From: a virus
DNA: 23,720 nucleotides
IMG/VR virus record: IMGVR_UViG_3300042505_002447
Span: 1-23,720 of that record
Reading direction: 5' to 3' (one strand)
Part shown: piece after piece, positions 1,369-19,170 of the stretch
Layout of the letters: every line of letters begins with the position of its first letter
Numbering within the stretch: position 1 is the stretch's first letter
The notes under the pieces: model-generated
Database searches by the model: none
Told to the model about the DNA's origin: nothing
The model's input: only the letters and a program-made list of their open reading frames with translations
Made by a program: the position numbers and the translations under genes

Positions 1369-1377
1369 TCTCGCCAC

Positions 1378-1414
1378 ATATCCACGCCCCCTGATCCCCC
1401 CTGATCCTGATCTC
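1378..1414 (+). promoter_or_regulatory. Putative late promoter, copy 1 (ATATCCACG-N28-ATG)
   Basis: ATATCCACG begins exactly 37 bases before the ATG at 1415. The 12 bases before the ATG are GATCCTGATCTC, the same 12 bases found at the same spacing in the copy at 7510. Treating ATATCC as a -35-like box and GATCCT as a -10-like box (A at -11, T at -7) places the transcript start at or next to the ATG. No purine-rich ribosome binding site is present before this start. Promoter function is inferred. Confidence 0.5.
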
Positions 1415-1624
1415 ATGAGCTTCAAGGTCAAAAGCCCAAAACCCGCGCCGGCGCCCGAAATGCCGGTCCAGCCTGTGGCGCCGGTCAGTCAGCCGACAGA
1501 TGCGCGGGCCAGACGCCTGCGAACCGGCGGGCGACAGAGCACGTTCCTGGGCGGGGCGGCGTCTTCGGCGCTGGCGGCGCCGCGTGGGAGCCTGACCGGG
1601 GCGGCCGGCGCGACGGGGATCTGA
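1415..1624 (+). CDS. Small conserved phage protein upstream of portal
   Basis: This encodes 69 residues with a Pro-rich start (KSPKPAPAPEMPVQP), a basic middle (DARARRLRTGGRQSTFLGG) and a Gly/Ala tail. Small proteins of this design, with an R-R-GR-S-T-x-L-x-G core, often sit beside portal genes in podoviruses; the function is unknown to me. The start at 1415 is chosen over in-frame codons from 1313 because those would overlap the end of the previous gene by over 50 bases and because the upstream 37-base promoter-like element ends exactly here. There is no Shine-Dalgarno sequence, which fits leaderless translation. The portal gene follows after 4 bases, so the two are probably co-transcribed. 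Confidence 0.7.
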   Translation: MSFKVKSPKPAPAPEMPVQPVAPVSQPTDARARRLRTGGRQSTFLGGAASSALAAPRGSLTGAAGATGI

Positions 1625-1628
1625 GAGC

Positions 1629-3326
1629 ATGGCGGTCAAGGTCGAGAAGGCCGACTTTAAGAGCCTGGACCGGCATTTCGATGATCTGCGCCAGACGCGG
1701 ATCTCGACGGGGCGCGATGCCGAGTTTCAACTGATCGCGGACGTGTTCCTGCCGCGCAAGGACTTCATGCTGCCCCAGAAGCCCACCGAGCTTAGGCGCC
1801 GGCGGCTGACCAGCTCGGTGCCGGCGGTGCAACTGCGGCGTGGGGCGGGCCTAGGCATGGCCTATGCGATCTCCAACACCCGCCCGTTCATCAAGCCCAA
1901 TGTGGCGCGCGGCCTGGTGGCGGCGGGGCGGCGCACGGAGCTGGAGAGCGAGGCGATCACCTATCTGTCCGACACCGAATGGTCGGTGTTTGACGCCATG
2001 ATGCTGCCCCAGTCGGGGTTCGTGTCCAGTTCGGCACGGATGTGGCTCGAGCTCTATGCGTTCGGCACGGCGATCCAGTGGGTGGGCCGCAAGCGCGGCT
2101 TCGGGGCCAGCTATCAGACGCGCCCGCTGCGCGCCTGCTGGATCGAGGAAGGCGAGGACCAGAAGGTCGAGACGAACTTTTTTCAGTTCACCCTGCCGCT
2201 GTGGAAGGCGGTCATGCGCTGGCCCGATCATGGCGTCGACAAGTGGACGAGGGCCATGGCTGACGACAATCCGGCCAAGGCGCGCGACCATGTGACGATC
2301 GTGCATGCGGTCTATCCGCGCCGGGGCGGAGAGGCGGGCGCGTTCGCCGAAGCCAAGCCCTGGGCGGAGGTCTATTTCTGCCGCGACGAGAAGGTGATCC
2401 TGGCGGAACGCGGCTATGACAGCTTCCCCTACGCCGTGCCAAGACTGGACGTGGAAGATGGCTCCGCCTACGGGACGGGCCTGGCCTGGTGGGTGCTGCC
2501 CGAGGCGCTGGTGCTGCATTCGCTGCAGCAGGGCGTGGAAACGGCCGTCGAGCTGAAGAACAATCCGCCGCTGATGGTGCCCAAGCGCATGTTCGGCAAG
2601 GCGCTGGACCGGCGCGCCGGGTCGGTGAACCAGTATGATGCGGCGGGGCTGGGCTTCCAGAACGCCAGCCAGGCGATCCAGAAGCTGGACATTGCCGGCA
2701 ACGTCGAGGTGGCTGCCGCCTACATGGAGCGGCTGGAAGGCAATATCGAGCGGGCGTTCTTCACCGACTGGATGACGCTGCGCGATGCGTCGAACGTGAC
2801 GGCCGAGGAGATCCGCGACCGCCGGGATCTGCGCATCCGGGCCATGTCGAGCTTCGTGCCGGGGATCGACCGCGACTGGATGGGGCCGGTGGCCGACCGG
2901 ACGCTGGAAGTGATCGCCGAGGAAGGCATGCTGAAGCGCCCGCCGCCGCAACTGGGCGGGGTGGACGTGGACTGGGACTATAACGGCCCGCTGGCCATCG
3001 CCCAGCAGGCGGGGCAGGTGGAAAGCATCCAGCGCGCGCACCAGATGGCGATGGTGGCCCGCGATATCGACCCGTCCAGCGTCTATGTGTACGCGATCGA
3101 GGAAGGCCTGCGCGCCGCCGGTGAGGCGCTGGCGCTGCCGCCGGAGACGATGCGCAGCCGCACCCAGGTGGCGGAGATGCGCGCCCGCGACGAGCAGGCC
3201 CGCGCCATGGCGGAAAACGCCGAAATGATGAAGCAGGCCGGGCAGGCGTTGCAGGCGTCCGGGCAGGGCGCGGCGAACCTGGCCACGGCGGACCAGATCC
3301 AGCAGGGCGGAAGGATGGCGGCGTGA
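1629..3326 (+). CDS. Portal protein (head-tail connector, T7 gp8-like)
   Basis: This encodes 565 residues, close to T7 gp8 (536). It is recognised as the podovirus head-tail connector family: an N-terminal helical region (residues 1-60), a central wing/stem segment with AFGTAIQWV near 145 and ELKNNPPLMVPKRM near 307-320, and an Ala/Gln/Met-rich helical C-terminus (about 480-565) like a portal barrel. Twelve copies would form the ring at one capsid vertex, through which DNA is packaged and ejected and onto which the gatekeeper and nozzle dock. GAGAG at 1622-1626, just before the ATG, is a close but usable ribosome binding site. The stop overlaps the next start as TGATG, indicating translational coupling. 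Family assignment is firm; residue roles are from the family. Confidence 0.93.
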   Translation: MAVKVEKADFKSLDRHFDDLRQTRISTGRDAEFQLIADVFLPRKDFMLPQKPTELRRRRLTSSVPAVQLRRGAGLGMAYAISNTRPFIKPNVARGLVAAGRRTELESEAITYLSDTEWSVFDAMMLPQSGFVSSSARMWLELYAFGTAIQWVGRKRGFGASYQTRPLRACWIEEGEDQKVETNFFQFTLPLWKAVMRWPDHGVDKWTRAMADDNPAKARDHVTIVHAVYPRRGGEAGAFAEAKPWAEVYFCRDEKVILAERGYDSFPYAVPRLDVEDGSAYGTGLAWWVLPEALVLHSLQQGVETAVELKNNPPLMVPKRMFGKALDRRAGSVNQYDAAGLGFQNASQAIQKLDIAGNVEVAAAYMERLEGNIERAFFTDWMTLRDASNVTAEEIRDRRDLRIRAMSSFVPGIDRDWMGPVADRTLEVIAEEGMLKRPPPQLGGVDVDWDYNGPLAIAQQAGQVESIQRAHQMAMVARDIDPSSVYVYAIEEGLRAAGEALALPPETMRSRTQVAEMRARDEQARAMAENAEMMKQAGQALQASGQGAANLATADQIQQGGRMAA

Positions 3327-3676
3327 TGGATATCGGGACGCAGGGATTTTGCGACACGTGCCCGTATTGGGCGGCTGCGCTGGGGCAGGGCGGCGAGGTT
3401 TCCTCGCGCGGTCAGTGCCGCCGGCTGCCCCCTTATGCCGGCATAGGGTTTTCGAGTGTCTGGCCGCTGGTGAATTCGCACGACTGGTGCGGGGAGCATC
3501 CGGCGCGGGCGGTTACCATTAGCGGCGAGTTGGTGGCTGAGGCTGCCAATGAGACGCCTTATGTTGCAATTGGCGGCCCTGAGCTTCCGGCTGACCCCCT
3601 CCACCCCGCTACGCGCGGTCCCCCTCCCCCAACGGGGGGAGGATCTGAGGTTCAGCGGCGGAAGCGTGCGGCATGA
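3326..3676 (+). CDS. Four-cysteine small phage protein
   Basis: This encodes 116 residues. The ATG at 3326 shares its A with the portal stop (TGATG), which is preferred over the GTG at 3323. Residues 1-60 hold the conserved part: CDTCPYW (C9, C12), GQCRRLPP (C31) and DWCGEH (C55), in the pattern C-x2-C-x18-C-x23-C. This resembles small phage proteins that probably bind zinc or an iron-sulfur cluster; their role is not known. Residues from about 90 on (PLHPATRGPPPPTGGG) are encoded by a palindromic repeat element at 3595-3643 and look like an accidental extension rather than a domain. The stop overlaps the next start (ATGA at 3673). Confidence 0.75.
   Translation: MDIGTQGFCDTCPYWAAALGQGGEVSSRGQCRRLPPYAGIGFSSVWPLVNSHDWCGEHPARAVTISGELVAEAANETPYVAIGGPELPADPLHPATRGPPPPTGGGSEVQRRKRAA
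3595..3643. repeat. CCCCCTCC...GGGGAGGA palindromic repeat, family A copy 1
   Basis: The element starts CCCCCTCCACC, has an inner pairing of CCGC with GCGG, repeats CCCCCTCCCCC and ends GGGGGGAGGA, so the outer arms can pair. It matches the copies at 4886-4940, 7624-7667 and, more loosely, 19085-19125. This copy lies inside the reading frame of the four-cysteine gene. Similar elements are, to my knowledge, common between genes in Caulobacterales chromosomes. Confidence 0.8.
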
Positions 3677-4029
3677 GCGCCAGCGAGTTTGACGCCCATG
3701 CGCTGATTGCGCGGATCAGGGCGGGGGATGAGGCGGCTTTGACGGCGGCCTATCTGCAGACGTTTGGCAACGAGCTGGGGCGGCTGGTGCTGGCGCATGT
3801 CGCCGGGCTGGCGGGCGTCGGCATGAAGTACGGCGGGGCGCCGGACCTGTGGTCGCTGGGCTACCACATGGGCGGCCACGACCTGGCGCTGGACATGATC
3901 AATCGCGCGGGTTTCGACCAGGCCAGCGCGATCTCGATGGTGATGACTGGTCGATTGGAAGGACCTGAACATGAGCGAAGCGCCCAACCCGGTGGAGACG
4001 CCGAACCCGACCCCGAACTCGGGGACTGA
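3673..4029 (+). CDS. Bbp19-like small structural-region protein
   Basis: This encodes 118 residues, starting in an ATGA overlap with the previous gene. The core (residues 10-95) is helical: ALIARIRAGDEAALTAAYLQTFG, then GRLVLAHVAGLAGVG, then HMGGHDLALDMINRAGFD. The layout of a residue-G-x-x-x-L-x-x-I helix after a 'top' helix recalls the Bbp19 family, which sits beside portal genes in BPP-1-like podoviruses; the match is from memory of the pattern and is tentative. The last 20 residues (PEHERSAQPGGDAEPDPELGD) lie in a 59-base overlap with the scaffold gene and are compositionally constrained by it. The function is unknown; the position argues for a head assembly or packaging accessory. Confidence 0.65.
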   Translation: MSASEFDAHALIARIRAGDEAALTAAYLQTFGNELGRLVLAHVAGLAGVGMKYGGAPDLWSLGYHMGGHDLALDMINRAGFDQASAISMVMTGRLEGPEHERSAQPGGDAEPDPELGD

Positions 4030-4879
4030 AGCCGCACCCAACCCCGCGCCCGCGCCGGCCGGCGCATCGGGCGACGACGCCCCCTGGCACGCGAGCCTGC
4101 CGGACGATCTGAAAAGCCAGCCGGGGGTGCTGCGGCACGCGACCATGGCCGACGCCATTCAGGCCGGGATCGCGGCGGAGAAGCGGCTGGGGGTGCCGGC
4201 GGATCAGTTGGTGCGGTTGCCGACCAAACCGGACGACAAGGAGGCCTACGGGGCGATCTATAAAGCGCTCGGCGCGCCCGACGCGGCGGACGGTTACAAG
4301 CTGGACCTGACCGGCGCCAGCGACGATGACGTGGCCACGGTGACGGAATTCACCAAGGCGATGCACGAGGCGGGTCCGTTCCCGCCGGCCTTCCTGCAGG
4401 CGGCGGCGAACTGGTATCGCGCCGAGACGGCCAAGGCGGCCGAAGCGCAGGCGGCGGAAGATGCGGCGCTGACCAAGGCGGCTGAAACCGAACTGCGCAC
4501 CGAATGGGGCGCGGCCTATGACACCACGCTGAAGGAGATCGGGAAGCTGATCACCGACCTGGGCGGCGAGAGGCTGGCGCAGGAGCTGGATCTGGACAGC
4601 AAGGTGGGCTCCTCGCCCGAACTGGCGCGGTTCCTCAAGAAGGTGCTGGACAAGCAGGCCGAGGGCGGCCCGACGGCGGATGGCCAGCGGGCGGATGTGG
4701 GGGGCGGGGCGATGACGCCGAGCCAGGCCTACGCCGCGCGCGCGGCCCTGGAAGGCGACCCGGTGAAGGGCGCGGCCCTGATGAACAAATCCCATCCGCA
4801 GCACGCCGCTGTGGTGGAGGAACGCAACCGCTATCTGGCCTTTGAAAACCCGAACGTGGCGGCCGCCGCGCGCGCTTGA
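3971..4879 (+). CDS. Capsid scaffolding (assembly) protein
   Basis: This encodes 302 residues. The N-terminus (1-35) is a disordered Pro/Asn/Ala stretch; residues 40-110 contain WHASLPDDLKSQPGVLRHATMADAIQAG and DQLVRLPTKPDDKEAYGAIYKALGAP, a pattern I know from phage scaffold and capsid-assembly proteins; 120-230 is long charged helix (coiled-coil-like); the C-terminus (260-302) is helical and basic/Asn-rich, as expected for the capsid-binding end. It would template capsid shell assembly before MCP and leave the mature head. The ATG has a good ribosome binding site (GAAGGA, 3957-3962) inside the preceding gene, which supports this start despite the 59-base overlap. It is followed by a repeat and the capsid gene. 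Confidence 0.85.
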   Translation: MSEAPNPVETPNPTPNSGTEAAPNPAPAPAGASGDDAPWHASLPDDLKSQPGVLRHATMADAIQAGIAAEKRLGVPADQLVRLPTKPDDKEAYGAIYKALGAPDAADGYKLDLTGASDDDVATVTEFTKAMHEAGPFPPAFLQAAANWYRAETAKAAEAQAAEDAALTKAAETELRTEWGAAYDTTLKEIGKLITDLGGERLAQELDLDSKVGSSPELARFLKKVLDKQAEGGPTADGQRADVGGGAMTPSQAYAARAALEGDPVKGAALMNKSHPQHAAVVEERNRYLAFENPNVAAAARA

Positions 4880-4885
4880 CGCGCG

Positions 4886-4940
4886 CCCCCTCCACCACTT
4901 CGTGGTTTCCCTCCCCCGTCGTCTTCGCGACAGGGGAGGA
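4886..4940. repeat. Family A palindromic repeat, copy 2
   Basis: CCCCCTCCACCACTTCGTGG is followed by TTTCCCTCCCCCGTCG and closes with GGGGAGGA. The inner ACCAC/GTGGT arms form a small hairpin around TTC, and the outer CCCCTCC can pair with GGGGAGG. It starts 7 bases after the scaffold stop, where it could form an RNA hairpin protecting or attenuating the message ahead of the capsid gene. Confidence 0.85.
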
Positions 4941-5012
4941 CCGGACTTGACACCGCCCGCAAATCAGTTGCGCCTTCCGTGCATCGCCTGAACCGGGAAC
5001 CCGTCCTGAACG

Positions 5013-5065
5013 GTCCGGACAGAGGGCGACGCCGGGGGGCGTAAAATCCAGGCTTGCGTCCGGAC
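5013..5065. promoter_or_regulatory. Capsid-gene leader with paired GTCCGGAC palindromes
   Basis: The scaffold-capsid gap (4880-5152) has no gene. After the family A repeat it contains a TTGACA at 4947-4952 with no convincing -10 box, then the perfect palindrome GTCCGGAC twice (5013-5020 and 5058-5065) flanking a small ACGCC/GGCGT hairpin (5030-5043). The two palindromes are 45 bases apart start to start and could be an operator or a leader RNA structure. A good ribosome binding site (GCGAGGA) precedes the capsid ATG. Function is speculative. Confidence 0.3.
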
Positions 5066-5152
5066 TTTGAAGCCGGGGGTCGCTGCCGATCAATCCCAAT
5101 TTTGATCGAGAGCGCGTGCGCGTGACCCGCGACCGCTCGCAGCGAGGATTTC

Positions 5153-6070
5153 ATGTCCAACGAAGCGACCCAGTATGTTCCCGGTTTCATGGCCAATCTG
5201 CGCCTGTCGCCGCAACAGATGGAAAAGCGGTTCATCGGCGCGGTTGACGCCGACCTGAGCCACACCGCCCCCGGAACCCTGTTCAACGCCGACGACATCG
5301 GCGTGGCCAACGGCAACGAGGTGACGGTTACTGGCCGTGCGCCGCCGACCCCGGAAGGCTTCGCCGACCACAAGCGCCGCGTCGGCTTTTTCGAGGCCAA
5401 GGCGAACCAGCGCTGGATCGAGAGCCTGGAAAAGGTCCGCATGCTGGTGGACCCGACCAATCCGATCATGGAAAGCATGATGGCCGAAAAGAACCGGGGG
5501 TCCGACGACCGGATCATCCAGGGTCTGTTCGAGAACAGCCGCAATGGTCAGAACGGTGAAACCTCGACGGCTTTCCCGGCCGCCCAGATCATCGCCGTGG
5601 ACAACCGCGACTTCATCCATGACGCCGAAGTGCTGCCGGGCTCCGGCAACCTGCCGCTGACCGTGGGCAAGCTGATCAAGGCCAAGATCATGCTGGATCA
5701 GTCGGAACTGGAGGGCGAGCGCTACTTCGCCTGCAGCTCCATCCAGCTCGGCAACCTGCTGTCGTCCACCCCTGTGACCAGCGCCGACTACAACACCATC
5801 GGCGCCCTGGCTGCAGGCAAGACCGATGACTTCATGGGCTTCAAGTTCATCCGCAGCGAGCGGCTGACCGTGGCCAGCAACATCCGCCGGTGCGCGGCGT
5901 GGGTGAAGCCGGCGATCCAGTACAAGGAGCGCCCGATCACCAATGCCCAGCTCACCCAGCGGGCGGATCGCTCCTATCGCTGGCAGGCCTACTACGAGGT
6001 CGATCGCGGCTGCCTGCGTCGCTACGATGAAGGTGTCGTGCAGGTGCTCTGCACCGAGGTGGTCTTCTAA
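5153..6070 (+). CDS. Major capsid protein
   Basis: This encodes 305 residues, the main shell subunit (HK97 fold expected). The sequence looks like the phage capsid family found with T7-like connectors in proteobacteria: SNEATQYVPGFMANLRLSPQQ at the start (extended N-arm), NEVTVTGRAPPTPEGFADHKRRVGFFEA near 60-85, a spine-helix segment WIESLEKVRMLVDPTNPIMESMMAEKNR near 90-115, and GDFMGF-type beta strands (TDDFMGFKFIRSERL) near 223-240. The C-terminus (YYEVDRGCLRRYDEGVVQVLCTEVVF) is a typical closing strand. GAGGA lies 5 to 9 bases before the ATG. There is no slippery sequence for a T7-like 10B readthrough form. It lies between scaffold and a probable decoration gene. Confidence 0.9.
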   Translation: MSNEATQYVPGFMANLRLSPQQMEKRFIGAVDADLSHTAPGTLFNADDIGVANGNEVTVTGRAPPTPEGFADHKRRVGFFEAKANQRWIESLEKVRMLVDPTNPIMESMMAEKNRGSDDRIIQGLFENSRNGQNGETSTAFPAAQIIAVDNRDFIHDAEVLPGSGNLPLTVGKLIKAKIMLDQSELEGERYFACSSIQLGNLLSSTPVTSADYNTIGALAAGKTDDFMGFKFIRSERLTVASNIRRCAAWVKPAIQYKERPITNAQLTQRADRSYRWQAYYEVDRGCLRRYDEGVVQVLCTEVVF

Positions 6071-6088
6071 GGCCAGCCAACCGGAACC

Positions 6089-6112
6089 GGGTCGCTCCTG
6101 AGGGGGCGACCC
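6089..6112 (+). terminator. Hairpin after capsid gene, possible attenuator
   Basis: GGGTCGCTCC (6089-6098), loop TGAG and GGGGCGACCC (6103-6112) form a 10-base-pair stem with one G-T pair, 18 bases after the capsid stop. The following bases (ACCCTCTTG) are not a run of T, so it is a weak or partial terminator, or a 3' stabiliser that sets the capsid to decoration protein ratio. Confidence 0.45.
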
Positions 6113-6179
6113 ACCCTCTTGTCGGGCCGACAGGCCCCCCGCCGCCGCAAGCGCCGGGAACTCCGAAAGACCCAAGACG

Positions 6180-6665
6180 ATGCCTGATTTCAACGGCGAC
6201 CTGGTTGGAACCCCGCTGGCGGCCGCTGCCGGCGCCAACCCCTACAACGTCCCGAACGCCCTGAAGGGCGGCACGGACGTGGTGCTGATGCGCGACACGA
6301 TCGAACTCATCACCGCCTTCGCGCAGAACGATCGCGTCAAGCTGGGGGACTTCCCCTCGGATGTGATCATTAACCCGGTGCAGAGCACGATCTGGTTCGA
6401 CAACCTGGGGGCTTCGACCACCATGGACGTCGGCTCGACCGCCTCGGAAGCGGCCCTGGTGGCGGCGCAGGCGACCTCGGCGGCGGGTTCGTGCCTGTTC
6501 TACAAGAACGTCGACGTGGCCAACTACTGGAAGCCGCTGTGGCAGGTGCTGGGCCTCGCCGCCGACCCCGGCGGCACGATTGCGATCTTCGCCAAGCTCG
6601 AAGCCGCCGACCCCGGTGTGGGCACGATGACCTGGCAGATTGTCGGTCAGCGGCGTCTGGCCTGA
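6180..6665 (+). CDS. Probable head decoration protein
   Basis: This encodes 161 residues directly after the capsid gene. It is a soluble protein with short beta strands and many Ala/Gly/Asp residues: an N-terminal extended segment (DFNGDLVGTPLAAAAGANPYNVPNALKGG), then VVLMRDTIELITAFAQNDRVKLGDFPSDVIINPVQSTIWFDNLGASTTMDVG and later YWKPLWQVLGL...IAIFAKLEA...GTMTWQIVGQRRLA. I know similar proteins next to capsid genes as structural proteins of unknown fold; a head decoration or cement role is inferred from position and size only. GAAAGA lies about 10 bases before the ATG. A strong hairpin follows at 6755-6800, suggesting the capsid unit may end here. Confidence 0.7.
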   Translation: MPDFNGDLVGTPLAAAAGANPYNVPNALKGGTDVVLMRDTIELITAFAQNDRVKLGDFPSDVIINPVQSTIWFDNLGASTTMDVGSTASEAALVAAQATSAAGSCLFYKNVDVANYWKPLWQVLGLAADPGGTIAIFAKLEAADPGVGTMTWQIVGQRRLA

Positions 6666-6754
6666 TAGGCTTCAGCCGCCCCGCCCCGCGCTGCGCAACA
6701 TCGCGTGTCGGGCGGCTGGATCTCCGGCGGGTTTTCGATAGCAAGCCGGAAGCG

Positions 6755-6800
6755 CGGCGCGGGGGTGTGACCCATGGTCCTTCCAACCCCCGCGCCGTTT
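6755..6800 (+). terminator. Long-stem hairpin with short T tail
   Basis: CGGCGCGGGGGT (6755-6766) pairs perfectly with ACCCCCGCGCCG (6786-6797) around a 19-base loop and is followed by TTT. The very stable 12-pair stem suggests a rho-independent terminator or attenuator after the capsid and decoration genes; the short T run lowers confidence. Confidence 0.55.
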
Positions 6801-6830
6801 GCGTGAGAGAGACATTGCAGGTGGAGAGCT

Positions 6831-6880
6831 GGGTCCCGGTTCGGCTTACGCGCTTCGCGCTCCATTGACCGGGATGACAG
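6831..6880. repeat. GGTCCCGG...CCGGGATGAC palindromic repeat, family B copy 1
   Basis: TCCCGG and CCGGGA form outer arms around an inner GCGCTTCGCGC hairpin, ending GATGACAG. The copy at 19024-19073 has the same arms, core and length. It ends only 10 bases before the gatekeeper start. Elements of the form 'GTCATCCCGG...CCGGGACC' on the opposite strand are, to my knowledge, frequent chromosomal repeats in Caulobacterales. Confidence 0.8.
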
Positions 6881-6890
6881 GTTTTTACGG

Positions 6891-7505
6891 ATGACGCTGA
6901 CCGCCAAGAACGAAGTGATCAACACCGCGATGGCGCACCTGGGCGAGCCCGGGTTTTCGGCGATTGACACCGATCCGCCCGGGGCGGCGCTGGCCAAGGT
7001 GCTGGGGCAACTGGACGGGCGGGCGGGCGTCGAGCAATTCGCCCTGTCGCGGCATCCCTGGCTGTGCGCGCTCAGCTACGCCACCCTGGCGCCGGCGGCG
7101 TCGCCGCCGACCAACTGGAAGTGGAAAAACCTGTTCATCCTGCCCGACACTTTTGTGAAGATGTGGGTGGTGGACGGCGATGACGTGCCGTTCGAGGTGG
7201 GCACGGAGGTGATCTCCAGCGCGGTCAAGAAGGTGGTGCGCTGCGACGAGGCCGCGCTGAAGATCGCCTTCAGCGAGCGCAAGGCCTGGGAGGCCTATTC
7301 GCCGGACCTCTGCAACTACATGGCCCTGCTGCTGGCGGCGCGGACGGCCGGGCCGCTGAAGAACGACTATGACGGCGCGGCGCGGCTGATGAAACGGGCG
7401 GACGAGGCCCTGCAGATGGCCATGGGCGGGGAGGCCGGGCAGTATCTGGAGCCGGAGGTCATGTTTTCGAGCGGGTTTGCGGCGCTCAGGGCGCAGGCGG
7501 CGTAG
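6891..7505 (+). CDS. Tail tubular protein A / gatekeeper (T7 gp11-like)
   Basis: This encodes 204 residues, matching T7 gp11 (196). Family features: an N-terminal LTAKNEVINTAMAHLGEPGFSAIDTD helix; a central ALSRHPWLCALSYATLAP...NWKWKNLFILPDTFVKMWVVDG block (residues 45-100, typical 'W-x-FA--Y-LP-D-LR---V' pattern of the family); and a C-terminal helical hairpin YSPDLCNYMALLLAARTAGPL...RLMKRADEALQMAM. It sits as a ring under the portal and holds the nozzle. No strong ribosome binding site is visible (only AGG at 6879-6881). A terminator follows the gene at 7577, so it ends a transcription block and is separated from the nozzle gene by promoter and repeat elements. Confidence 0.88.
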   Translation: MTLTAKNEVINTAMAHLGEPGFSAIDTDPPGAALAKVLGQLDGRAGVEQFALSRHPWLCALSYATLAPAASPPTNWKWKNLFILPDTFVKMWVVDGDDVPFEVGTEVISSAVKKVVRCDEAALKIAFSERKAWEAYSPDLCNYMALLLAARTAGPLKNDYDGAARLMKRADEALQMAMGGEAGQYLEPEVMFSSGFAALRAQAA

Positions 7506-7509
7506 GGGT

Positions 7510-7546
7510 TTATCCACGGCCTGCCCGGCGGGCCGATCCTGATCTC
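7510..7546 (+). promoter_or_regulatory. Putative late promoter, copy 2 (no gene at expected start)
   Basis: TTATCCACG at 7510 is followed after 16 bases by GATCCTGATCTC, identical in sequence and spacing to the element before 1415. At the position where the other copies have ATG, this one reads GCC (7547). A small GC hairpin (GCCC/GGGC, about 7522-7532) lies between the boxes. The terminator at 7577-7604 would end any transcript after about 58 bases. It may be a relic or drive a tiny RNA. Confidence 0.4.
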
Positions 7547-7576
7547 GCCGCCCTTGGTGGCGTTTCCTCCCTGACT

Positions 7577-7604
7577 GGCCCCGGTTCGCGCCGGGGCCTT
7601 TTTT
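7577..7604 (+). terminator. Rho-independent terminator
   Basis: GGCCCCGG (7577-7584), loop TTCGCG and CCGGGGCC (7591-7598) form a perfect 8-base-pair stem followed by six T (7599-7604). It ends the block that closes with the gatekeeper gene. It is the clearest terminator in the window. Confidence 0.92.
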
Positions 7605-7623
7605 GTGGGCTGTGCGGCGGCGG

Positions 7624-7667
7624 CCCCCTCCACCACTTCGTGGTCCCCCTCCCCCGGAAGGGGAGGA
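7624..7667. repeat. Family A palindromic repeat, copy 3
   Basis: CCCCCTCCACCACTTCGTGG, then TCCCCCTCCCCC and GGAAGGGGAGGA. This is the most regular copy: the inner ACCAC/GTGGT hairpin and the outer CCCCTCC/GGGGAGG arms are both intact. It stands between the terminator at 7577 and the promoter-like element at 7676, the same order (repeat, then TTATCCACG) as at 19085-19170. Confidence 0.88.
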
Positions 7668-7675
7668 ACGCCCGC

Positions 7676-7712
7676 TTATCCACGTGCCGACCGGCACATG
7701 GAGTATCGGGCT
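7676..7712 (+). promoter_or_regulatory. Putative late promoter, copy 3 (TTATCCACG-N28-ATG)
   Basis: TTATCCACG begins 37 bases before the ATG at 7713. GAGTAT occupies -12 to -7 (A at -11, T at -7). A perfect inverted repeat GTGCCG-AC-CGGCAC (7684-7697) fills the space between the boxes and could be a regulator site. Unlike copy 1, this start also has GGAG at 7700-7703, so it may be read with or without a leader. Confidence 0.5.
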
Positions 7713-10327: not shown

Positions 10328-10791
10328 TGGTGGCGCCACTTGCTGCGGCGGCGATCGCCAGCGCGGGCCTGTCGGCCGTGGGAAAGATCCTGGGCGGGAT
10401 CGGATCGAAGTCGGCCGCCAAGGCGCGCGCGGGGGCGCTGGAAACCAACGCCGGGATGGACCTGGCGGAAAGCGGCCTGGCCGCGCAGATGGGGCTGGAG
10501 CAGGACGAGCGGGTGGCCGCCAGTCTGGCGACGCAGGCGGCGGCCGGCGGCGGGGGCGGCCTGCGGGGATCGGCCCTGCGGGTGCTGAACGATCTGGGGC
10601 GGCAGAGCCTGCAGAAGGCCAGAAACACCGTCTATGGCGGCCAGACGGCGGCCTGGTCGCGGCGCAATGACGCGCAGGTGGCCCGCACCGAGGGACGCAA
10701 CGCCCTGACCGGGGCGGTGATCGGGGCGGGCGCCTCGCTGATCGGCGGGGCGGCCAAGGCCTATGACATCAAGAACGGCGGCAGGGGATAA
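10327..10791 (+). CDS. Internal virion / DNA ejection protein (T7 gp14-like)
   Basis: This encodes 154 residues. Hydrophobic Ala/Gly-rich segments at both ends (about 4-24, LAAAAIASAGLSAVGKILGGI, and 122-142, LTGAVIGAGASLIGGAAKAY) flank an amphipathic helical centre with Gln/Asp/Glu and a Gly run (GGGGGLRGSALRVLNDL). This is the plan of gp14 of T7 and gp7-type ejection proteins, which leave the virion and insert in the outer membrane as part of the DNA channel. Start overlaps the previous stop (TGATG) and its stop overlaps the next start (TAATG), so it is coupled within the ejection block. Confidence 0.8.
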   Translation: MVAPLAAAAIASAGLSAVGKILGGIGSKSAAKARAGALETNAGMDLAESGLAAQMGLEQDERVAASLATQAAAGGGGGLRGSALRVLNDLGRQSLQKARNTVYGGQTAAWSRRNDAQVARTEGRNALTGAVIGAGASLIGGAAKAYDIKNGGRG

Positions 10792-13670: not shown

Positions 13671-13707
13671 ATATGCAACGAAACGTCGCCCGGGCGAAAG
13701 TGAGCGC
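13671..13707 (+). promoter_or_regulatory. Possible late promoter, weak copy
   Basis: ATATGCAAC begins one base after the previous stop and exactly 37 bases before the ATG at 13708; it differs from ATATCCACG at several positions. GAAAGT lies at -12 to -7 (A at -11, T at -7). The perfect palindrome TCGCCCGGGCGA (13686-13697) takes the place of the inverted repeats in the stronger copies. Position supports it; sequence is only a partial match. Confidence 0.3.
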
Positions 13708-16050
13708 ATGCCAAGCCTGCTGATTGATCCAGAAGTCGATGAGGCGGATGCCGCCGAAGCCCTGAGCGGGTCTTCGTCGGGCCTGCTGACGTTTGAAAGC
13801 CAGATGGGCCAGTTGACGGCGGCGGCCGGCGATGTGGCGCGCGGCTTCGGGCGCGGGCGCGGCGAGCTGCTGGATCCGGAGACGGCCAACCGGGACTATG
13901 GCGTCGAGGGGCAATTGACCTTCGAGCGCCCGACCTATGAGAACGATGCGGCGCGCAAGCAACATTCGGCGCAGCGCCGGGCGTTCCGCGACGATGTGAT
14001 GAGCCGGTCCGAACTGGGGCCGCTGGGCAAGATGGGCGCGGCCCTGACCGGGGCGCTGTTTGATCCGGTGGGCCTGCCGCTGATGTTCGCCCCCGAACTG
14101 CTGGGCCTGCGCGGGACGCTGGAAGGCGGGGCGGTGTTCCGGGCGGGCAGCGTGCTGGGCAAGGCCGGGCGGGTGGCCAATGTCGGGCGCGGGGCGGTGA
14201 TCGGCGGGATCGAGGGCGCGGCGGGCGGCGTGGTCTATGAGGCGGGGGCGTTCGCCCTGAGCAATGCCGATGATCCGGACTACACGGCGGGCGATGCGCT
14301 GAACAACGTGCTGCTGGGCACGGTGCTGGGCGGCGGGATCGGCGGGGTGCTGGGCGGCGTGTTCGGCGGGCGGGGCCAGCCGGCGGCGCTGGCGCGGATG
14401 GACGAGGACGCCCGGCTGGGGGCGGTGATGAGCGCGCTGGACGATGTGTCCGCCGACCGGCCGGTGAACGTGGCCGCGATCATCGAGAAGGAAGCGCCGC
14501 CGAAGGCCGCGCCCACGCCCGAACGGCTGGCGGCGCTGGACGAGGGCGGCGGCGGGCCACGGATCACGGCGCGCGAGCTGGAGGCTGATGTGGCGGTGAC
14601 GTCGCGCGGCCGCGAGATCCCGGTGAAGTACGCCCTGGTGGAACTGGACGATCTGGTCACCAGCCACACCGATGACCTGGAGCGCAATGCGGCGTTCCCG
14701 GAAGCCCTGCAACCCCGCGACCGGACGCGGGCGGGGAGCCAGGCAGGCAACTTCCGGCTGGAAGCGGAGCTGAACCCGAAACGGCTGATGCGCGAGGCCG
14801 GGGCGGAAACCGGCGCGCCGTTGGTGGCGCCCGACGGCACGGTGGAAAGCGGGAACGGCCGGACGATTGCGCTGCGCCGGTCGGCGCGGACGGGCTCGGA
14901 GGCCTATGGCCGCTATCGTCAGGAACTGGCGGCGCAGGGGTTTGATACGACCGGCATGACCAACCCGGTGCTGGTGCGGATCCGCACAGGCCGGATGGAC
15001 GGGGAGGCGCGGGCGGCGCTGGCCCGGGAAATGAACGCCGCGCCCACGGAAACCATGGGACCGTCCGAACAGGCGATGGCCGATGCGGCGGCGCTGGACG
15101 ATGCGGTGCTGAGCCGGATCGACGGCACGGCGGCGGGCGAGCGCGCCTTCATGCAGGCCTTCGTGGCCAAGGTGGCGCCGGACCAGCAGAACGCCTTTGC
15201 AGCGGCGGACGGCGCCCTGAGCCAGCAGGGTCGCCAGCGGGCGGCGGCGGCGCTGGTGGCGCGGGCCTATGGCGATCCGCGCCTGGTGGAAGCCGTGTTC
15301 GAGACGGCGGACCCGAACATTCGCACCCTGGGGGCGGCGCTGAGCGAGGCGGCGCCCGGCTGGGCGAAGATGCGATCGCTGGCGGCGCGGGGCGAGATCC
15401 CGGCGGATCTGGACGTGACCGCGCAGCTCCGCGCGGCGGTGGACATGATCCGCCACGCGCGGGACCATAGAATTCCTGTGGATGAATGGATCGCCCAGCG
15501 GCTGGACCAGCAGGAGCTGTTCGGCGGGAATTCGGTGGATGTGGAAACCGAAGCCTTCCTGCGGCTGTTTTTCCGGGATGACACTTTCCGTCGGCACCGT
15601 TCTGCGGATAAGATCGCCTGGGCGCTGAAGGACTATGCGCGACAGGCGGGCGACGTGGCCCCCGGCCCGAACCTGTTTGGAGATACGCCCGATGGCGAAG
15701 CCCGCCTCATTCTCGATGGCCTCAACCGGAAATTCGCCGGAGACGAGCGGTTCCCCGCCGAAGCCGACCTCCTCGACCTCGCGCCAAAGCCCACGGAACC
15801 TGCTCGCATCGACCTTCGCCCGGATGCCGGCGACGGAGGCGGAGGCGGCGTACAACGCGGACCTGGCGAAGGCCCTGCGGGAGGGGTAGCGGAGGGCGGA
15901 CGTCCCGACCCTACGACCCTGATTGATCCGGAACTGAAGGCCCTGGCGGACGAGGTGCTGGCCGATGCACCGTCGCTGGCCCCGCGCGATGATCCGGCGG
16001 TGATCGCCGAGGCGATCCGGGCGGCGGCGTTTTGTTTGAGGGAGGGGTAG
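13708..16050 (+). CDS. Polyvalent ejection protein with DdrB/ParB-like domain
   Basis: This encodes 780 residues. Residues 1-100 are acidic/basic linker; 105-225 contain glycine-zipper hydrophobic stretches (ALTGALFDPVGLPLMFAPELLGL; LLGTVLGGGIGGVLGGVFGG at 202-221) suited to membrane contact. Residues about 280-560 match the DdrB-like ParB superfamily domain of phage 'polyvalent' proteins: ELDDLVTSH, ALQPRDRTRAG (333-343), LVAPDGTVESGNGRTIAL (372-389), then helical EWIAQRLDQQELFGG and FLRLFF near 590-625. Such proteins are thought to be injected with the DNA and act early in the cell, perhaps as ParB-like nucleases or CTP-binding DNA proteins. The C-terminus after about 690 is Gly-rich and may be a mosaic patch. 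GTGAG lies a few bases before the ATG. Confidence 0.82.
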   Translation: MPSLLIDPEVDEADAAEALSGSSSGLLTFESQMGQLTAAAGDVARGFGRGRGELLDPETANRDYGVEGQLTFERPTYENDAARKQHSAQRRAFRDDVMSRSELGPLGKMGAALTGALFDPVGLPLMFAPELLGLRGTLEGGAVFRAGSVLGKAGRVANVGRGAVIGGIEGAAGGVVYEAGAFALSNADDPDYTAGDALNNVLLGTVLGGGIGGVLGGVFGGRGQPAALARMDEDARLGAVMSALDDVSADRPVNVAAIIEKEAPPKAAPTPERLAALDEGGGGPRITARELEADVAVTSRGREIPVKYALVELDDLVTSHTDDLERNAAFPEALQPRDRTRAGSQAGNFRLEAELNPKRLMREAGAETGAPLVAPDGTVESGNGRTIALRRSARTGSEAYGRYRQELAAQGFDTTGMTNPVLVRIRTGRMDGEARAALAREMNAAPTETMGPSEQAMADAAALDDAVLSRIDGTAAGERAFMQAFVAKVAPDQQNAFAAADGALSQQGRQRAAAALVARAYGDPRLVEAVFETADPNIRTLGAALSEAAPGWAKMRSLAARGEIPADLDVTAQLRAAVDMIRHARDHRIPVDEWIAQRLDQQELFGGNSVDVETEAFLRLFFRDDTFRRHRSADKIAWALKDYARQAGDVAPGPNLFGDTPDGEARLILDGLNRKFAGDERFPAEADLLDLAPKPTEPARIDLRPDAGDGGGGGVQRGPGEGPAGGVAEGGRPDPTTLIDPELKALADEVLADAPSLAPRDDPAVIAEAIRAAAFCLREG

Positions 16051-16052
16051 GC

Positions 16053-16352
16053 ATGGCCAAGCGTCCCTTCTGCGACGATTGGGGTTGTCCCTCCATGTGG
16101 ACCTGTGCCCGCGCTTGGGGCCGAGCCGAAGCCTACTGGCGCTTCGACCCCGACCAAGACGCCCGCGAACGCATCTCCCTCTATGCAGGCCTGCGGAAGC
16201 CCGGCCACGAGGCCTGTGCCGATTGGGAACGGGACAAGCCGCGCCCTTGGCTGGCGGGGGCCTTTGAGCCGATGAACGGGGTCGGCATGACGCGCCCGGT
16301 GATCCCGCCTAACTTCAAGTTGGCGGCGGTCGAATGCGAAGGTGAAGCATGA
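16053..16352 (+). CDS. Second four-cysteine small phage protein
   Basis: This encodes 99 residues with GGAGG just before the ATG (16041-16046) in the tail of the previous gene; an in-frame TTG at 16032 is less likely. Cysteines C7, C12, C18 and C55 (CDDWGCPSMWTCARAW ... HEACADW) may bind a metal. Small proteins of this type (C-D-x-x-C-P ... C-x-R ... C-x-x-W) occur beside ejection genes in other podoviruses; their job is unknown. Its spacing differs from the four-cysteine protein at 3326, so the two are not obvious duplicates. The stop overlaps the next start as ATGA. Confidence 0.72.
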   Translation: MAKRPFCDDWGCPSMWTCARAWGRAEAYWRFDPDQDARERISLYAGLRKPGHEACADWERDKPRPWLAGAFEPMNGVGMTRPVIPPNFKLAAVECEGEA

Positions 16353-19024
16353 AAGCCTGCCACGCCCCCATCCGCGCCGCGACGGGCGACGCCTTCTCCG
16401 ACGCCGAGATTGACGACATCCTCGACCGGCTGGCGCGCAAGCACAAACGCGCCAAGGGCAAGGCTCCGACCGCCAGCGATGAACAGGCGTGGGCTGAGGC
16501 CGCCGCCGACCTGACGCGGGAGGAGGTGGAAACCGCCCTGCAGGCGCGCCGGCTGGAGCATTTCGCCAAGGCCGCGCGGGTGGCGCGTGAAGCCCGGATG
16601 GCCGCCATGACGGCGGGCGGGCTGGACGAGGCGCAGGCCCTGAAGGCCTACAATGTGGGATCGGACAAGCAGGCCGGGTTCTCCAGCGCCAGCGTGGACG
16701 CCGAGGGCCGGGCGCGGGCGGTGGCGGCGTGGGGCGACGTCGAGCGCGGTCTGGCGGCGCACGAGGGCCTGAGCGACCGGCTGGTGAACTTCTGGGGCGG
16801 CGGCGACGATGCGTTCGACCGCGACGTGGCGCGCGAGATGGCCCGGCTGAACGGGGCCGACATCGAGGCGACGGGGGATGCCGACGCGCTGGCGGCGGCG
16901 CGGGTGTTTGCCGCCGCGCTGGAGAAAAACCGTCAGGGGCTGAACGCCCAGGGCGCGTTTGTGGGCAAGCTGAAGGGGCGGATCGCGGCGCAGTCGCATG
17001 ACCGCCTGAAGGTGTCGGGCGGGTTCTGGCGGGAGTTTCGCGAGGCGGGGATCGGTGCGCCGGCCAAGTGGGGCGAGGCGCGCCTGCAGGCGTCGCGCAA
17101 GGCGTTCCGGCAATGGCGGGACTATATCCGGCCACGGCTGGACCCGGCGACCTTTGACGGGATCGACGTTTCCGACGGGGCGCTGGCGGACGAGGCCGAG
17201 GCGCTGGCGAAGGCCGGGGTGATCGACGACGCGGCGGATCTGGAGGAGCGGTTCCTGTACCGCGCCTGGTGGAACATCGTCTCGGGCGCCCATGAGGTGC
17301 TGGGGGGCGCGCAGGATCTGGCGGAATTCCGCCCGCCGGCCGGCAAGGCCCGGGCGGTCAGCAAACACCGGGTGCTGCACTTCAAGGACCCCGACGCCTG
17401 GTCGGACTATCACGCCGAATATGGGCGGGGATCGCTCTACAGCGTGGTGATGGGCGAGCTGGAGCGCGGCGGCAAGAACGCCGCCCTGATGGCGCGCTGG
17501 GGCCCGTCGCCGGAAGCCGCCTTCGGGCGGACGATGGAGACGCTGGGATCGGCGGCGCGGGCGCGCGGCGACGCCGGGGCGGCGAACGCCCTGCAGAGCC
17601 GGTTGCGGCAGGCGGAGTTTGACGAGCTGACCGGGGAAACCAACCGGCCCGACAAACTGCGGCTGGCGCTGATCGGGCGCACGATCCGGACCTCGCAGGT
17701 GCTGTCCAAGCTGGGCGGCATGGTGCTGTCGGCGCTGTCGGACACGGCGCTGGCCAGTCAGGCCATGACCCGGGCGGGCGGCAATTTCGCGGGCGGCTAT
17801 GGCGCGGCGCTGAAAGGCATTGCGCGGCTGCAGGACGCGGAGGGCAAGCGCGCGGCGGATCTGCTGGACGTGGGCTCACGCTCGGCGGCGGCGCATCTGA
17901 TGGGCCGCTTCACGGCCACGGACGGGCCGTTGGGCTGGTCGGCCTGGGCGCAGCGGGTGTTCTATCGGGTGAACGGGTTCGAGGCCTGGTCGGACGGCCT
18001 GCGCCGGGGCGTCGGCGAAATGCTGTCCGCGCACTGGGGGCAGGAGGCGGCGTTCGGGTGGGATGGATTGCAGGCGGGCACGCGCGAGACGTTCGAGCGC
18101 TACGGCATTGACCGGGGCCTGTGGGATCTGGCGCGGACCGGGACCACGCCGCTGGAGGACGGGCGGACCTATTTCAGCCTGGAGGCCATCGACGGCCTGT
18201 CGGATGCGGACGTGCATCGCTGGGCAGGGCTGAAGGGCAAACAGGCCACGGCGGCGGCGGCGGCGCGGTTACGTGACGACATCAGGCTCAGGTTCCAGAC
18301 CATGACCGGCGGCATTCTCGACGACGCCCTGACGGAGGCCCGGGCGCGGGAGCGGGTGGCGCTGGTTCAGGGCCTGAAGGCGGGCACGGTGTGGGGGGAG
18401 GCGGTGCGCAGCTTCACCCAGTTCTGGAGTTTTTCGGCGACGATCCTGGGGCGGCATGTGGCGCCGGCGGCGCGGGGGTTCGCGGGCCGCCAGCCGGTCG
18501 CCCTGCTGGCGCATCTGATCGTGGCCACGACCCTGCTGGGGGCGGCGTCGCTACAGGCCAAGCAACTGGTGAAGGGCCGCACGCCGCGCCCGCTGGACCG
18601 GCCCGAGACCTGGCTGGCGGCGCTTCTTCAAGGAGGGGGCCTTGGCGTGTACGGCGACTTTCTGTTTGGGGAATACGCGCGCAGCGGTATGCCGGCAACG
18701 ATCAGCACGTTCGCGGGTCCGTCGGTGAGCGAGCTGGAGCGTCTGCGCTTGGTGGTGGGTGCGGCGGCGGGCACGCTGAACCCGCTGACCACGGATGAAA
18801 AGCGCGACGCCTCGAAGCAGGTGCTGGAGCAACAGGGGTTCCGGTTCATCAAGGACAACACCCCGTTCGCCAACATCTTCTACACCCGGCTGGCGCTGGA
18901 TTATCTGGTGCTGTGGCGGCTGCAGGAGGCGATCTCGCCGGGGTATCTGGCGCGGTATGAGGCCAATGTGCGCGAGCGCGAGGGAAGTGATTTCCTGATC
19001 TCGCCGACGGAGGCGGTGCAGTAG
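16349..19024 (+). CDS. Large internal virion / ejection protein
   Basis: This encodes 891 residues, starting in an ATGA overlap. It is mostly helical: charged N-terminal region (EIDDILDRLARKHKRAKG, 20-40), a middle section FWREFREAGIGAPAKWGEARLQASRKAFRQW, and a hydrophobic segment PVALLAHLIVATTLLGAASLQAKQL at about 716-740. The end, NTPFANIFYTRLALDYLVLWRLQEAISPGYLARYEANVRE then a Phe-Leu-x-x-Pro-Thr-Glu-Ala closing, is the conserved tail of the very large ejection proteins of BPP-1/T7-like podoviruses. It probably lines the inner-membrane part of the ejection channel (gp16-like), but has no transglycosylase domain; that activity sits in the 10791 gene. Confidence 0.85.
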   Translation: MKACHAPIRAATGDAFSDAEIDDILDRLARKHKRAKGKAPTASDEQAWAEAAADLTREEVETALQARRLEHFAKAARVAREARMAAMTAGGLDEAQALKAYNVGSDKQAGFSSASVDAEGRARAVAAWGDVERGLAAHEGLSDRLVNFWGGGDDAFDRDVAREMARLNGADIEATGDADALAAARVFAAALEKNRQGLNAQGAFVGKLKGRIAAQSHDRLKVSGGFWREFREAGIGAPAKWGEARLQASRKAFRQWRDYIRPRLDPATFDGIDVSDGALADEAEALAKAGVIDDAADLEERFLYRAWWNIVSGAHEVLGGAQDLAEFRPPAGKARAVSKHRVLHFKDPDAWSDYHAEYGRGSLYSVVMGELERGGKNAALMARWGPSPEAAFGRTMETLGSAARARGDAGAANALQSRLRQAEFDELTGETNRPDKLRLALIGRTIRTSQVLSKLGGMVLSALSDTALASQAMTRAGGNFAGGYGAALKGIARLQDAEGKRAADLLDVGSRSAAAHLMGRFTATDGPLGWSAWAQRVFYRVNGFEAWSDGLRRGVGEMLSAHWGQEAAFGWDGLQAGTRETFERYGIDRGLWDLARTGTTPLEDGRTYFSLEAIDGLSDADVHRWAGLKGKQATAAAAARLRDDIRLRFQTMTGGILDDALTEARARERVALVQGLKAGTVWGEAVRSFTQFWSFSATILGRHVAPAARGFAGRQPVALLAHLIVATTLLGAASLQAKQLVKGRTPRPLDRPETWLAALLQGGGLGVYGDFLFGEYARSGMPATISTFAGPSVSELERLRLVVGAAAGTLNPLTTDEKRDASKQVLEQQGFRFIKDNTPFANIFYTRLALDYLVLWRLQEAISPGYLARYEANVREREGSDFLISPTEAVQ

Positions 19025-19073
19025 GTCCCGGCTCGGCCGCCGCGCTTCGCGCTTTGTTGGCCGGGATGACGGG
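19024..19073. repeat. Family B palindromic repeat, copy 2
   Basis: GGTCCCGGCTCGG, inner GCGCTTCGCGC, then GGCCGGGATGACGGG. Same arms and core as 6831-6880. Its first base is the last base of the preceding stop codon, so it acts as the 3' end of the ejection gene message and could serve as a weak terminator or stabiliser. Confidence 0.82.
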
Positions 19074-19084
19074 CTTTATGGCGT

Positions 19085-19125
19085 CCCCCTCCGGCGCTTC
19101 GCGCCACCTCCCCCTCCGGGGAAGG
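19085..19125. repeat. Family A palindromic repeat, diverged copy 4
   Basis: CCCCCTCC followed by the hairpin GGCGCTTCGCGCC, then ACCTCCCCCTCCGGGGAAGG. The core hairpin differs from copies 2 and 3 but the CCCCCTCC-hairpin-CCTCCCCCTCC-GGGG order is kept. Together with the family B copy and the promoter-like element it fills the whole 146-base gap between ejection and tail fibre genes. Confidence 0.7.
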
Positions 19126-19133
19126 CGCTGAGC

Positions 19134-19170
19134 TTATCCACGGCTCGCGCCCGCGCGCGAGCATGGGCCT
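19134..19170 (+). promoter_or_regulatory. Putative late promoter, copy 4 (TTATCCACG-N28-ATG)
   Basis: TTATCCACG begins 37 bases before the tail fibre ATG. GAGCAT occupies -12 to -7 (A at -11, T at -7), close to GAGTAT in copy 3. The inverted repeat GCTCGCG...CGCGAGC (19143-19162, 7 pairs) lies between the boxes. The ribosome binding site is weak (GGG only). Confidence 0.5.

Follow-up and report, generated by a model that had tools for sequence, protein, structure and literature searches.

Lineage-specific boxes, probable upstream elements of late promoters in temperate podophages

A short element recurs at a constant distance before start codons in a 23,720-nt stretch of viral DNA (IMG/VR record IMGVR_UViG_3300042505_002447; the whole stretch is called the window here). 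The initial annotation took it for part of a phage late promoter, which raises the question of what part of a promoter such an element would be, and what would read it.

Boxes before late genes in the window and in related podophages

The element, (A/T)TATCCACG or WTATCCACG, is present in four exact copies at 1378, 7510, 7676 and 19134, all on the + strand, which is the gene strand. Each of the ATGs at 1415, 7713 and 19171 follows a copy (1378, 7676 and 19134, respectively) whose first base lies exactly 37 nt upstream, as had been claimed, and the weak copy proposed for the gene at 13708 is a degenerate box, ATATGCAACG, that lies 37 nt before the ATG and is identical in the close relative G002. 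The list of exact copies in the window holds none directly upstream of the major capsid protein gene. The 8-mer TATCCACG was enriched in the window (four exact copies against a Markov mean of 0.32 and a maximum of 3 in 60 simulations); the 9-mer with one mismatch was not (6 found, mean of 4.1 expected). The late-gene features are:

1378–1386, + strand: box ATATCCACG, 37 nt before ATG 1415; the orthologous G002 start has TTATCCACG at an equal distance
1403–1408, + strand: -10-like GATCCT; the transcript would start at the A of ATG 1415
1415–1624, + strand: small ORF that immediately precedes the portal gene and opens the downstream block, with orthologues in relatives
1629–3326, + strand: head-tail connector (portal), PF12236, E = 5e-63
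5153–6070, + strand: major capsid protein, phrog_3437
7676–7684, + strand: box TTATCCACG, 37 nt before ATG 7713
7701–7706, + strand: -10-like GAGTAT, upstream of ATG 7713
7713–9926, + strand: tail protein (tail tubular B type), promoter-linked late gene, phrog_376, E = 3e-103
13671–13680, + strand: degenerate box ATATGCAACG, 37 nt before ATG 13708, same in G002
13696–13701, + strand: -10-like GAAAGT, upstream of ATG 13708
13708–16050, + strand: ddrB-ParB-domain protein, promoter-linked late gene, PF18763, E = 2e-28
19134–19142, + strand: box TTATCCACG, 37 nt before ATG 19171; G002 has ATATCCACG at an equal distance
19159–19164, + strand: -10-like GAGCAT, upstream of ATG 19171
19171–21411, + strand: tail fibre-type protein, promoter-linked late gene, phrog_1640, E = 1e-10

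A motif search in related phages, as the annotation had suggested, showed that a box lies near -37 (-35 to -39 relative to the ATG) at most orthologous late starts in related podophage contigs, with a sequence that is specific to the lineage. TTATCCACG is kept in close relatives, and distant lineages have boxes of their own (CGTCCGCCCC, TCATCCGAC, CCGTCCCC, TATCCCTCC and TAACCCCCCC). At starts of the 7713 type, the distance is the same in G002 and L001 despite differing neighbouring sequence. The gene orthologous to 13708 has the lineage box in G003, G004, G012 and G013, and a one-base variant of it in G006. Promoters of one genome share their box (identity 0.76 versus 0.50; 0 of 20,000 permutations), as compared over 31 segments, with L001 and five displaced or misplaced starts set aside; the permutation test used five genomes. 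A box that differs between lineages and is common to the promoters within a lineage points to a lineage-specific reader. By Markov comparison, CATCCGAC was modestly enriched; the G006 box CGTCCCC was not enriched genome-wide (18 found versus a mean of 15.8).

Both the box and the -10 rule described below were derived from a discovery set of 36 starts in 11 contigs, from which we dropped L001 TTB, G009 sm and the ddrB starts of G005, G009, G010 and G011, the last five being boxless. The held-out set comprised 25 starts from 14 of 16 new loci, the other eight of 24 loci lying in records already included, and its relatives cannot count as independent of those in the discovery set. L128 sm, whose upstream sequence is the same as that of G005 sm, was dropped from it, as were the boxless L144 sm and TTB starts; L126 sm likewise has no box. 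The TTB starts of L130, L137, L140, L147, G012 and G013 were moved one codon upstream of the extrapolated start, to an ATG. As controls we used the orthologue starts of nine other late genes, 124 in all from 24 contigs.

A scan based on the major capsid protein yielded 80 loci, nearly all distant, among which L001 alone was examined for promoters; L008, L093 and L094 (the latter two at 33% and 28% identity) were covered by a search for box-like strings only. A DNA search with the window gave no match to named phages, and two scans of genome contigs found no relative. Small intergenic repeats resemble repeats on Sphingomonas plasmids, which is no more than a hint at the host.

The -10 element and its distance from the start codon

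At all five window sites, the bases at -12/-11 are G-A and the base at -7 is T (GATCCT, GATCCT, GAGTAT, GAAAGT and GAGCAT), just as first noticed. The hexamer thus has A as its second and T as its sixth base, and it sits 6 nt before the start, as in sigma70-type promoters. The 17-base spacer between sigma70 boxes did not hold up: from TTATCC to the -10 hexamer we measured 19 nt, and a 17-nt spacer would require the hexamer ATCCAC, which does not match the sigma70 -35 consensus. The output of a promoter scan over positions 1–20000 held no window site with a TTGACA-type -35 element and a 16–18 nt spacer. What stands of the proposed sigma70 promoter is thus the -10-like xAnnnT element with A-11 and T-7, while the box is no ordinary sigma70 -35 element.

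Exact A-11/T-7 was found at 27 of 36 discovery starts and 18 of 25 held-out starts, versus 2 of 124 control starts and 2.5% of random positions; with the dropped rows included, the counts become 28/42 and 18/28. The nine discovery misses are four displaced promoters, two one-base shifts (G004 fibre and G009 TTB), a promoter with a 3-nt leader (G011 TTB), G006 fibre, and G009 fibre, whose start was placed away from its box. At the four displaced boxes, the spacing to the -10 element stays at 19–20 nt, the start is 53–69 nt away, and a Shine-Dalgarno 4-mer is present in three of the four leaders. Such 4-mers occur at 11/36 discovery and 5/25 held-out starts versus 66/124 control starts; they are depleted, although some remain, and this depletion makes leaderless transcripts likely. 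Comparison therefore supports the view of these sites as late promoters of the phage, whose transcripts would begin at the ATG or beside it; the support comes from the box and its spacing in relatives, A-11/T-7, the fewer Shine-Dalgarno sequences and the held-out relatives.

The pattern YRTCC-N19/20-SAnnnT-N5/7-ATG, derived from the late promoters themselves, had 37 gene-strand matches in 21 contigs, 31 of them at late starts, and 4 matches on the other strand (Markov expectation, 2.7). This search left out G004, G007, L001, L125, L128, L138, L142 and L144; L130, L137 and L147 gave no match because their box is not YRTCC. Of 29 box sites unlinked to a start, 17 are followed 19 or 20 nt on by a -10-like hexamer (13/20 outside G006 and 4/9 in G006).

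Inverted repeats between the boxes had been suggested as a regulator site. We rejected them as operators, since perfect stems are barely longer than in shuffled spacers (mean 4.18 versus 3.79, with p ≤ 0.05 at 3 of 56 sites).

The orphan copy at 7510

The copy at 7510 keeps the internal spacing, as previously stated, with its -10-like hexamer at 7535–7540. The features at this site are:

7510–7518, + strand: box TTATCCACG of a candidate sRNA promoter, conserved in G002 and L001
7535–7540, + strand: -10-like GATCCT of the candidate sRNA promoter
7547–7604, + strand: candidate 58-nt sRNA of the alphaR8/MmgR type, core UUUCCUCCCU from 7563, presumed 5' end

The orphan box best fits a promoter for a 58-nt, terminator-ended RNA resembling alphaR8/MmgR sRNAs. 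The putative terminator spans 7577–7598 and is followed by a T run, and all 58 nt are identical in three contigs. The UUUCCUCCCU core sits after a hairpin and before the Rho-independent terminator, as this 10-mer is reported to do in the alphaR8 sRNAs MmgR and SisA-D (PMC12559287). Unlike those sRNAs, the candidate is phage-encoded and lies behind a late-type promoter. Its RF00519 match (7543–7613) scored 31.5 bits in the window and in G002 (as L002) and 33.4 bits in L001, below the gathering score of 41, and an Rfam search of the window gave nothing at the gathering threshold.

Candidate readers of the box

We propose that the GC-rich xAnnnT -10 element serves host RNA polymerase carrying the housekeeping sigma factor, and that transcription would start at the start codon or a few bases from it, producing leaderless late mRNAs. 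We consider this part very probable; the transcript starts, the polymerase used and the binding are all inferred from sequence comparison. The box would stand in for a normal -35 element and be read by an activator that diverges with it, and it is quite likely that this activator is encoded by the phage. We lean towards the explanation as a whole, in which the boxes would form the upstream half of late promoters in this temperate podophage group. In T4 MotA and Mu C promoters, the site of a phage protein likewise replaces the -35 element and sigma70 uses the -10; the protein fold differs from that considered here, where, in addition, the start would be at the ATG.

An early protein resembling domain IV of DnaA is encoded in 16 of 16 contigs that hold at least 5.5 kb upstream of terL. 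For a profile of 13 members, the top five PDB matches were all DnaA (E = 2e-6 to 0.05), and for each of two predicted models Foldseek placed DnaA at ranks 1–9, with best E-values of 0.0045 and 0.02. Of the 13 members, 5 had a match to Pfam Bac_DnaA_C (best E = 0.0016), with member 1 below its cut-off, and the nearest family matches, to PRK06030 models, were also below cut-off. This protein is the best candidate reader of the box, with the case for it about evenly balanced; it could bind at -35 and aid sigma region 4, as proposed for GafY. Covariation with the box does not point to it specifically: the correlation of box similarity is 0.62 with the similarity of terL and 0.52 with that of the DnaA-like domain (partial correlation 0.31, p = 0.035), and G002 and L126 have the same box and different recognition helices (NRS versus DPA).

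The box might instead be read by the host, through its DnaA, an activator or a sigma factor, with box differences following the hosts. TTATCCACG differs at its last base only (8/9 in lineage A) from TTATCCACA, which we take to be the E. coli-type DnaA box; hosts may differ between lineages, and box similarity tracks overall phage similarity. However, CGTCCGCCCC, CCGTCCCC and TAACCCCCCC, at the same place, do not resemble DnaA boxes, and we regard a host reader as doubtful, if worth keeping in mind. An alternative that accepts the promoters, but makes the DnaA-like protein the initiator of phage replication and has another phage protein read the box, seems rather unlikely. The initiator role would suit the position of the gene, within the early operon and ahead of a gene that looks helicase-like from its translation, and the 3' end of the gene contains two box copies in G009 and L128 (a box inside this gene in L147 was set aside because it looks like a terminator-type hairpin). 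Against it, a scan covering 2.5 kb ahead of the gene and 6 kb beyond it found no box copy at up to one mismatch in G002, L126 and L137, and scattered copies in other contigs; moreover, by tblastn the DnaA-like ORF is the sole early ORF in at least 12 of 13 contigs (12/13 with the G003 query), with terminase, helicase-like, primase-like and antisense ORFs set aside.

Promoters of phage polymerases have a fixed spacing and a lineage-specific sequence, which the box resembles, but we think it very unlikely that the box is the promoter of a single-subunit phage RNA polymerase or the target of a phage sigma factor. Sigma70_r2 was found in 0 of 12 related records, some partial, with 10 control genomes positive, and Sigma70_r4 gave nothing over cut-off, with short matches in 3 of 12 records (E = 0.003–0.006). 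PF00940 was found in 0 of 12 records, again some partial, with no control genome positive, so that this search does not establish the absence of a single-subunit polymerase. The constant distance to start codons would also suit a translation signal in the mRNA; this is scarcely credible, since the four displaced cases keep the distance to the -10 and not that to the ATG, and the box at 7510 precedes a candidate terminator-ended RNA, with no late gene start at this distance.

The preferred candidate, the DnaA-like protein, finds its closest parallel in the activators of gene transfer agents in Caulobacter and Rhodobacter. GafA is reported to have a DnaA-like DNA-binding domain, and GafY corresponds to its N-terminal part (PMC11150451, PMC9638019, PMC6363796); GafY interacts with domains 3–4 of RpoD (sigma70) and has been suggested to assist where the -35 element is degenerate (PMC11150451). 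GafY/GafA and the present system would share a DnaA-like fold and the activation of phage-type structural genes. Binding of GafY is reported far upstream, at -123 to -113 and with IHF, whereas the box here occupies the -35 position in several promoters and varies with the lineage. The partner of GafY, GafZ (DUF6456), was not found over cut-off in 12 records here, some partial (one weak match, E = 0.047; Caulobacter control positive). Leaderless phage promoters have likewise been predicted in Cluster O mycobacteriophages, but as SigA promoters (PMC4351075), whereas here late structural genes share a lineage-specific box. We found no published description of such promoters in the full texts of one open-access library, a scope outside which most subscription papers lie.

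A broader scheme, which we put forward tentatively and consider improbable in full, is that a DnaA-derived activator, bound to a DnaA-box-like element that stands in for the -35, drives leaderless structural mRNAs, and that in lineage A promoters of this type give rise to a Shine-Dalgarno-pairing sRNA of the alphaR8 type as well. As a speculation from sequence and predicted folding, the exposed CCUCC of this sRNA might base-pair with Shine-Dalgarno sequences, to the advantage of the leaderless late mRNAs.

If true, the explanation would provide a late-promoter code for a temperate podophage group that can be read from sequence, and would connect late regulation in these phages with the DnaA-like activators that gene transfer agents use. 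It would also offer a natural set of co-diverged boxes and candidate readers for studying activator specificity and the leaderless translation of structural genes.

Box copies in the window and its relatives

The 23.7-kb window carries late podophage genes for a head-tail connector, capsid, tail and internal virion proteins, a fibre-type protein and lysozyme. The exact 9-mer WTATCCACG (the box) occurs four times, always on the gene strand, with three copies beginning 37 nt upstream of an ATG, bearing out the fixed 37-base distance described in the initial annotation:

1415, small ORF before the portal gene (sm), box at −37
7510, orphan box copy
7713, tail tubular B-type gene (TTB), box at −37
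19171, fibre gene, box at −37

The exact 8-mer TATCCACG was found four times, versus a Markov mean of 0.32. The 9-mer with one mismatch allowed was not enriched in the window, and the case for the box therefore rests on its position and conservation. Intergenic repeats of the type CCCCTCC...CTTCGTGG or CGCTTCGCGC lie at 4880-5152, 7506-7712 and 19025-19170; Sphingomonas plasmids contain repeats similar to 7506-7712.

The aligned pieces of the 41.3-kb contig G002 (locus L002) share 90-98% identity with the window. The contig has five exact box copies, all on the gene strand, and one copy of the pattern read backwards. Three of the five stand at the same distance before orthologous ATGs despite partly changed sequence between box and ATG; one corresponds to the 7510 copy, and one, with a −10-like hexamer, lies at the 3′ end of the terminase gene (terL). 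Integrase-like and repressor-like ORFs, as we read the translations, make G002 likely to be a temperate phage. Locus L001 has both the 7510-type and the TTB copies.

TTATCCACG is kept in G002, but is absent from distant loci, those with 47-58% identity in the 16349 protein. There, the corresponding late genes have a different box at around −37, though not every gene does. There was no box before sm in G009, nor before ddrB (the 13708 gene) in G005, G009, G010 and G011.

Lineage-specific boxes and further box sites in related contigs (contig positions as oriented)
Near −37 of late genes: CGTCCGCCCC in G003, G004, G012; TCATCCGAC in G005, G009, G010, G011; CCGTCCCC in G006; TATCCCTCC in G013
Loci found via terL, new box: TAACCCCCCC in L130, L137, L147
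Upstream of terL, with −10-like hexamer, then a common GGGTCAGGG-type stretch: G006 32702, G012 81, G013 6195, G009 13681
Before the small terminase gene (G009 alone with a −10 matching the search): G003 11344, G004 9204, G013 5152, G009 12658
Box and −10 at −36 of an ORF after the fibre gene: G010 15513, G011 18398

The lineage boxes exceed Markov expectation genome-wide, except CGTCCCC in G006 (18 found, mean 15.8); enrichment of CATCCGAC was modest (4, 8, 4 and 4 found versus means of 1.4, 2.1, 0.7 and 1.1), and one or two copies of CGTCCGCCCC were found on the opposite strand as well. Later loci, found via terL, displayed known boxes again or new ones; L126 has TTATCCACG before TTB and an sm without a box, while L144 has no box before either gene. 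Boxes of different genes within a genome had a mean identity of 0.76 (five genomes), compared to 0.50 for the same gene across other lineages, and none of 20,000 permutations reached the within-genome value. At about 56-59 kb, some ORFs of G004 look, from their translations, like an additional terminase and portal module of a different kind, next to the podophage.

Promoter anatomy and predicted leaderless starts

The box core is followed after 19-20 nt (19-21 allowed in the search) by a hexamer, xAnnnT, which usually ends 6 nt before the ATG. Exact A-11 and T-7 were present at 27 of the 36 discovery starts, from which the rule was derived, and at 18 of 25 held-out starts from later terL loci (28/42 and 18/28 if previously dropped rows are counted). 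By comparison, they were present at 2 of 124 starts of control late genes and at 2.5% of positions picked at random. The pattern YRTCC-N19/20-SAnnnT-N5/7-ATG, itself derived from these promoters, was searched for in 21 contigs. It gave 37 gene-strand matches, of which 31 fell at late starts, and four on the other strand; the Markov expectation was 2.7.

Shine-Dalgarno 4-mers preceded 11/36 discovery and 5/25 held-out starts, versus 66/124 controls. In four cases (sm of G013 and G005, fibre gene of G010 and G011), the box is displaced to 53-69 nt upstream, and the box-to-−10 spacing is unchanged, as would be expected of a promoter rather than of a translation signal. Three of these four leaders contain a Shine-Dalgarno 4-mer; that of G005 sm reads GGGGAAG. 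Leaderless mRNAs are reported to be frequent in Caulobacter (375, or 9.6% of CDSs; PMC4117421). Late promoters with transcripts beginning at the start codon, as initially proposed, are a well-supported prediction from comparison alone. The accompanying suggestion that inverted repeats between the boxes may serve as operators found no support when tested.

The orphan copy at 7510

The 7510 box is accompanied by a −10-like GATCCT, and a terminator closes the 58-nt stretch running from the predicted start, which is identical at 58/58 positions among the window, G002 and L001. No Rfam family reached its gathering score for this stretch. RF00519 (mmgR) matched over its full length at 31.5 bits, below the gathering score of 41; overlapping this match were lower-scoring ones to a betaproteobacterial sRNA and to SorX. 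The 10-mer UUUCCUCCCU, described as common to alphaR8 sRNAs (PMC12559287), is present and was found only in the window, G002 and L001 among 29 sequences searched. Window 7547-7604 is a candidate phage sRNA of the alphaR8/MmgR type.

A candidate reader of the box

All 16 contigs with 5.5 kb or more upstream of terL encode an early protein whose helix-turn-helix is like that of DnaA domain IV; five of the 16 supplied the first profile, and the G009 assignment is a weak tblastn match (E 2e-4). The protein was not found in L145 or L144, with 3.1 and 4.7 kb upstream of terL. Individual queries detected it in between 8 and 12 of 13 contigs, and Pfam and NCBIfam single-sequence matches were weak. The top five PDB matches of a 13-sequence profile were DnaA; for the G002 and G003 models (pLDDT 82 and 80), all nine best Foldseek matches were DnaA chains, with E values above 0.001 throughout. 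Domain searches of 12 records, not all of them complete, yielded no Sigma70_r2, three matches to Sigma70_r4, all weak, and a single weak one, below cut-off, to DUF6456, the domain of the GafY partner GafZ. A search of 12 records for a single-subunit polymerase gave no match, and gave none in the control genomes either. In both G009 (7727, 7749) and L128 (2363, 2383), the DnaA-like gene contains two box copies within its 3′ end, raising the question of an origin or autoregulation.

Similarity between boxes tracks that of terL no less closely than that of the DnaA domain, and recognition-helix residues differ between G002 and L126 although the box is common to both; these observations count against a simple protein-box code. 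The DnaA-like protein is a reasoned candidate for the box reader. We infer an alphaproteobacterial host from the type of sRNA and from the domain resembling that of GafA/GafY (activators of gene transfer agents). For GafY, an interaction with RpoD domains 3-4 is reported, and a helping role at a degenerate −35 has been proposed (PMC11150451); by analogy, the DnaA-like phage protein could act in the same way.
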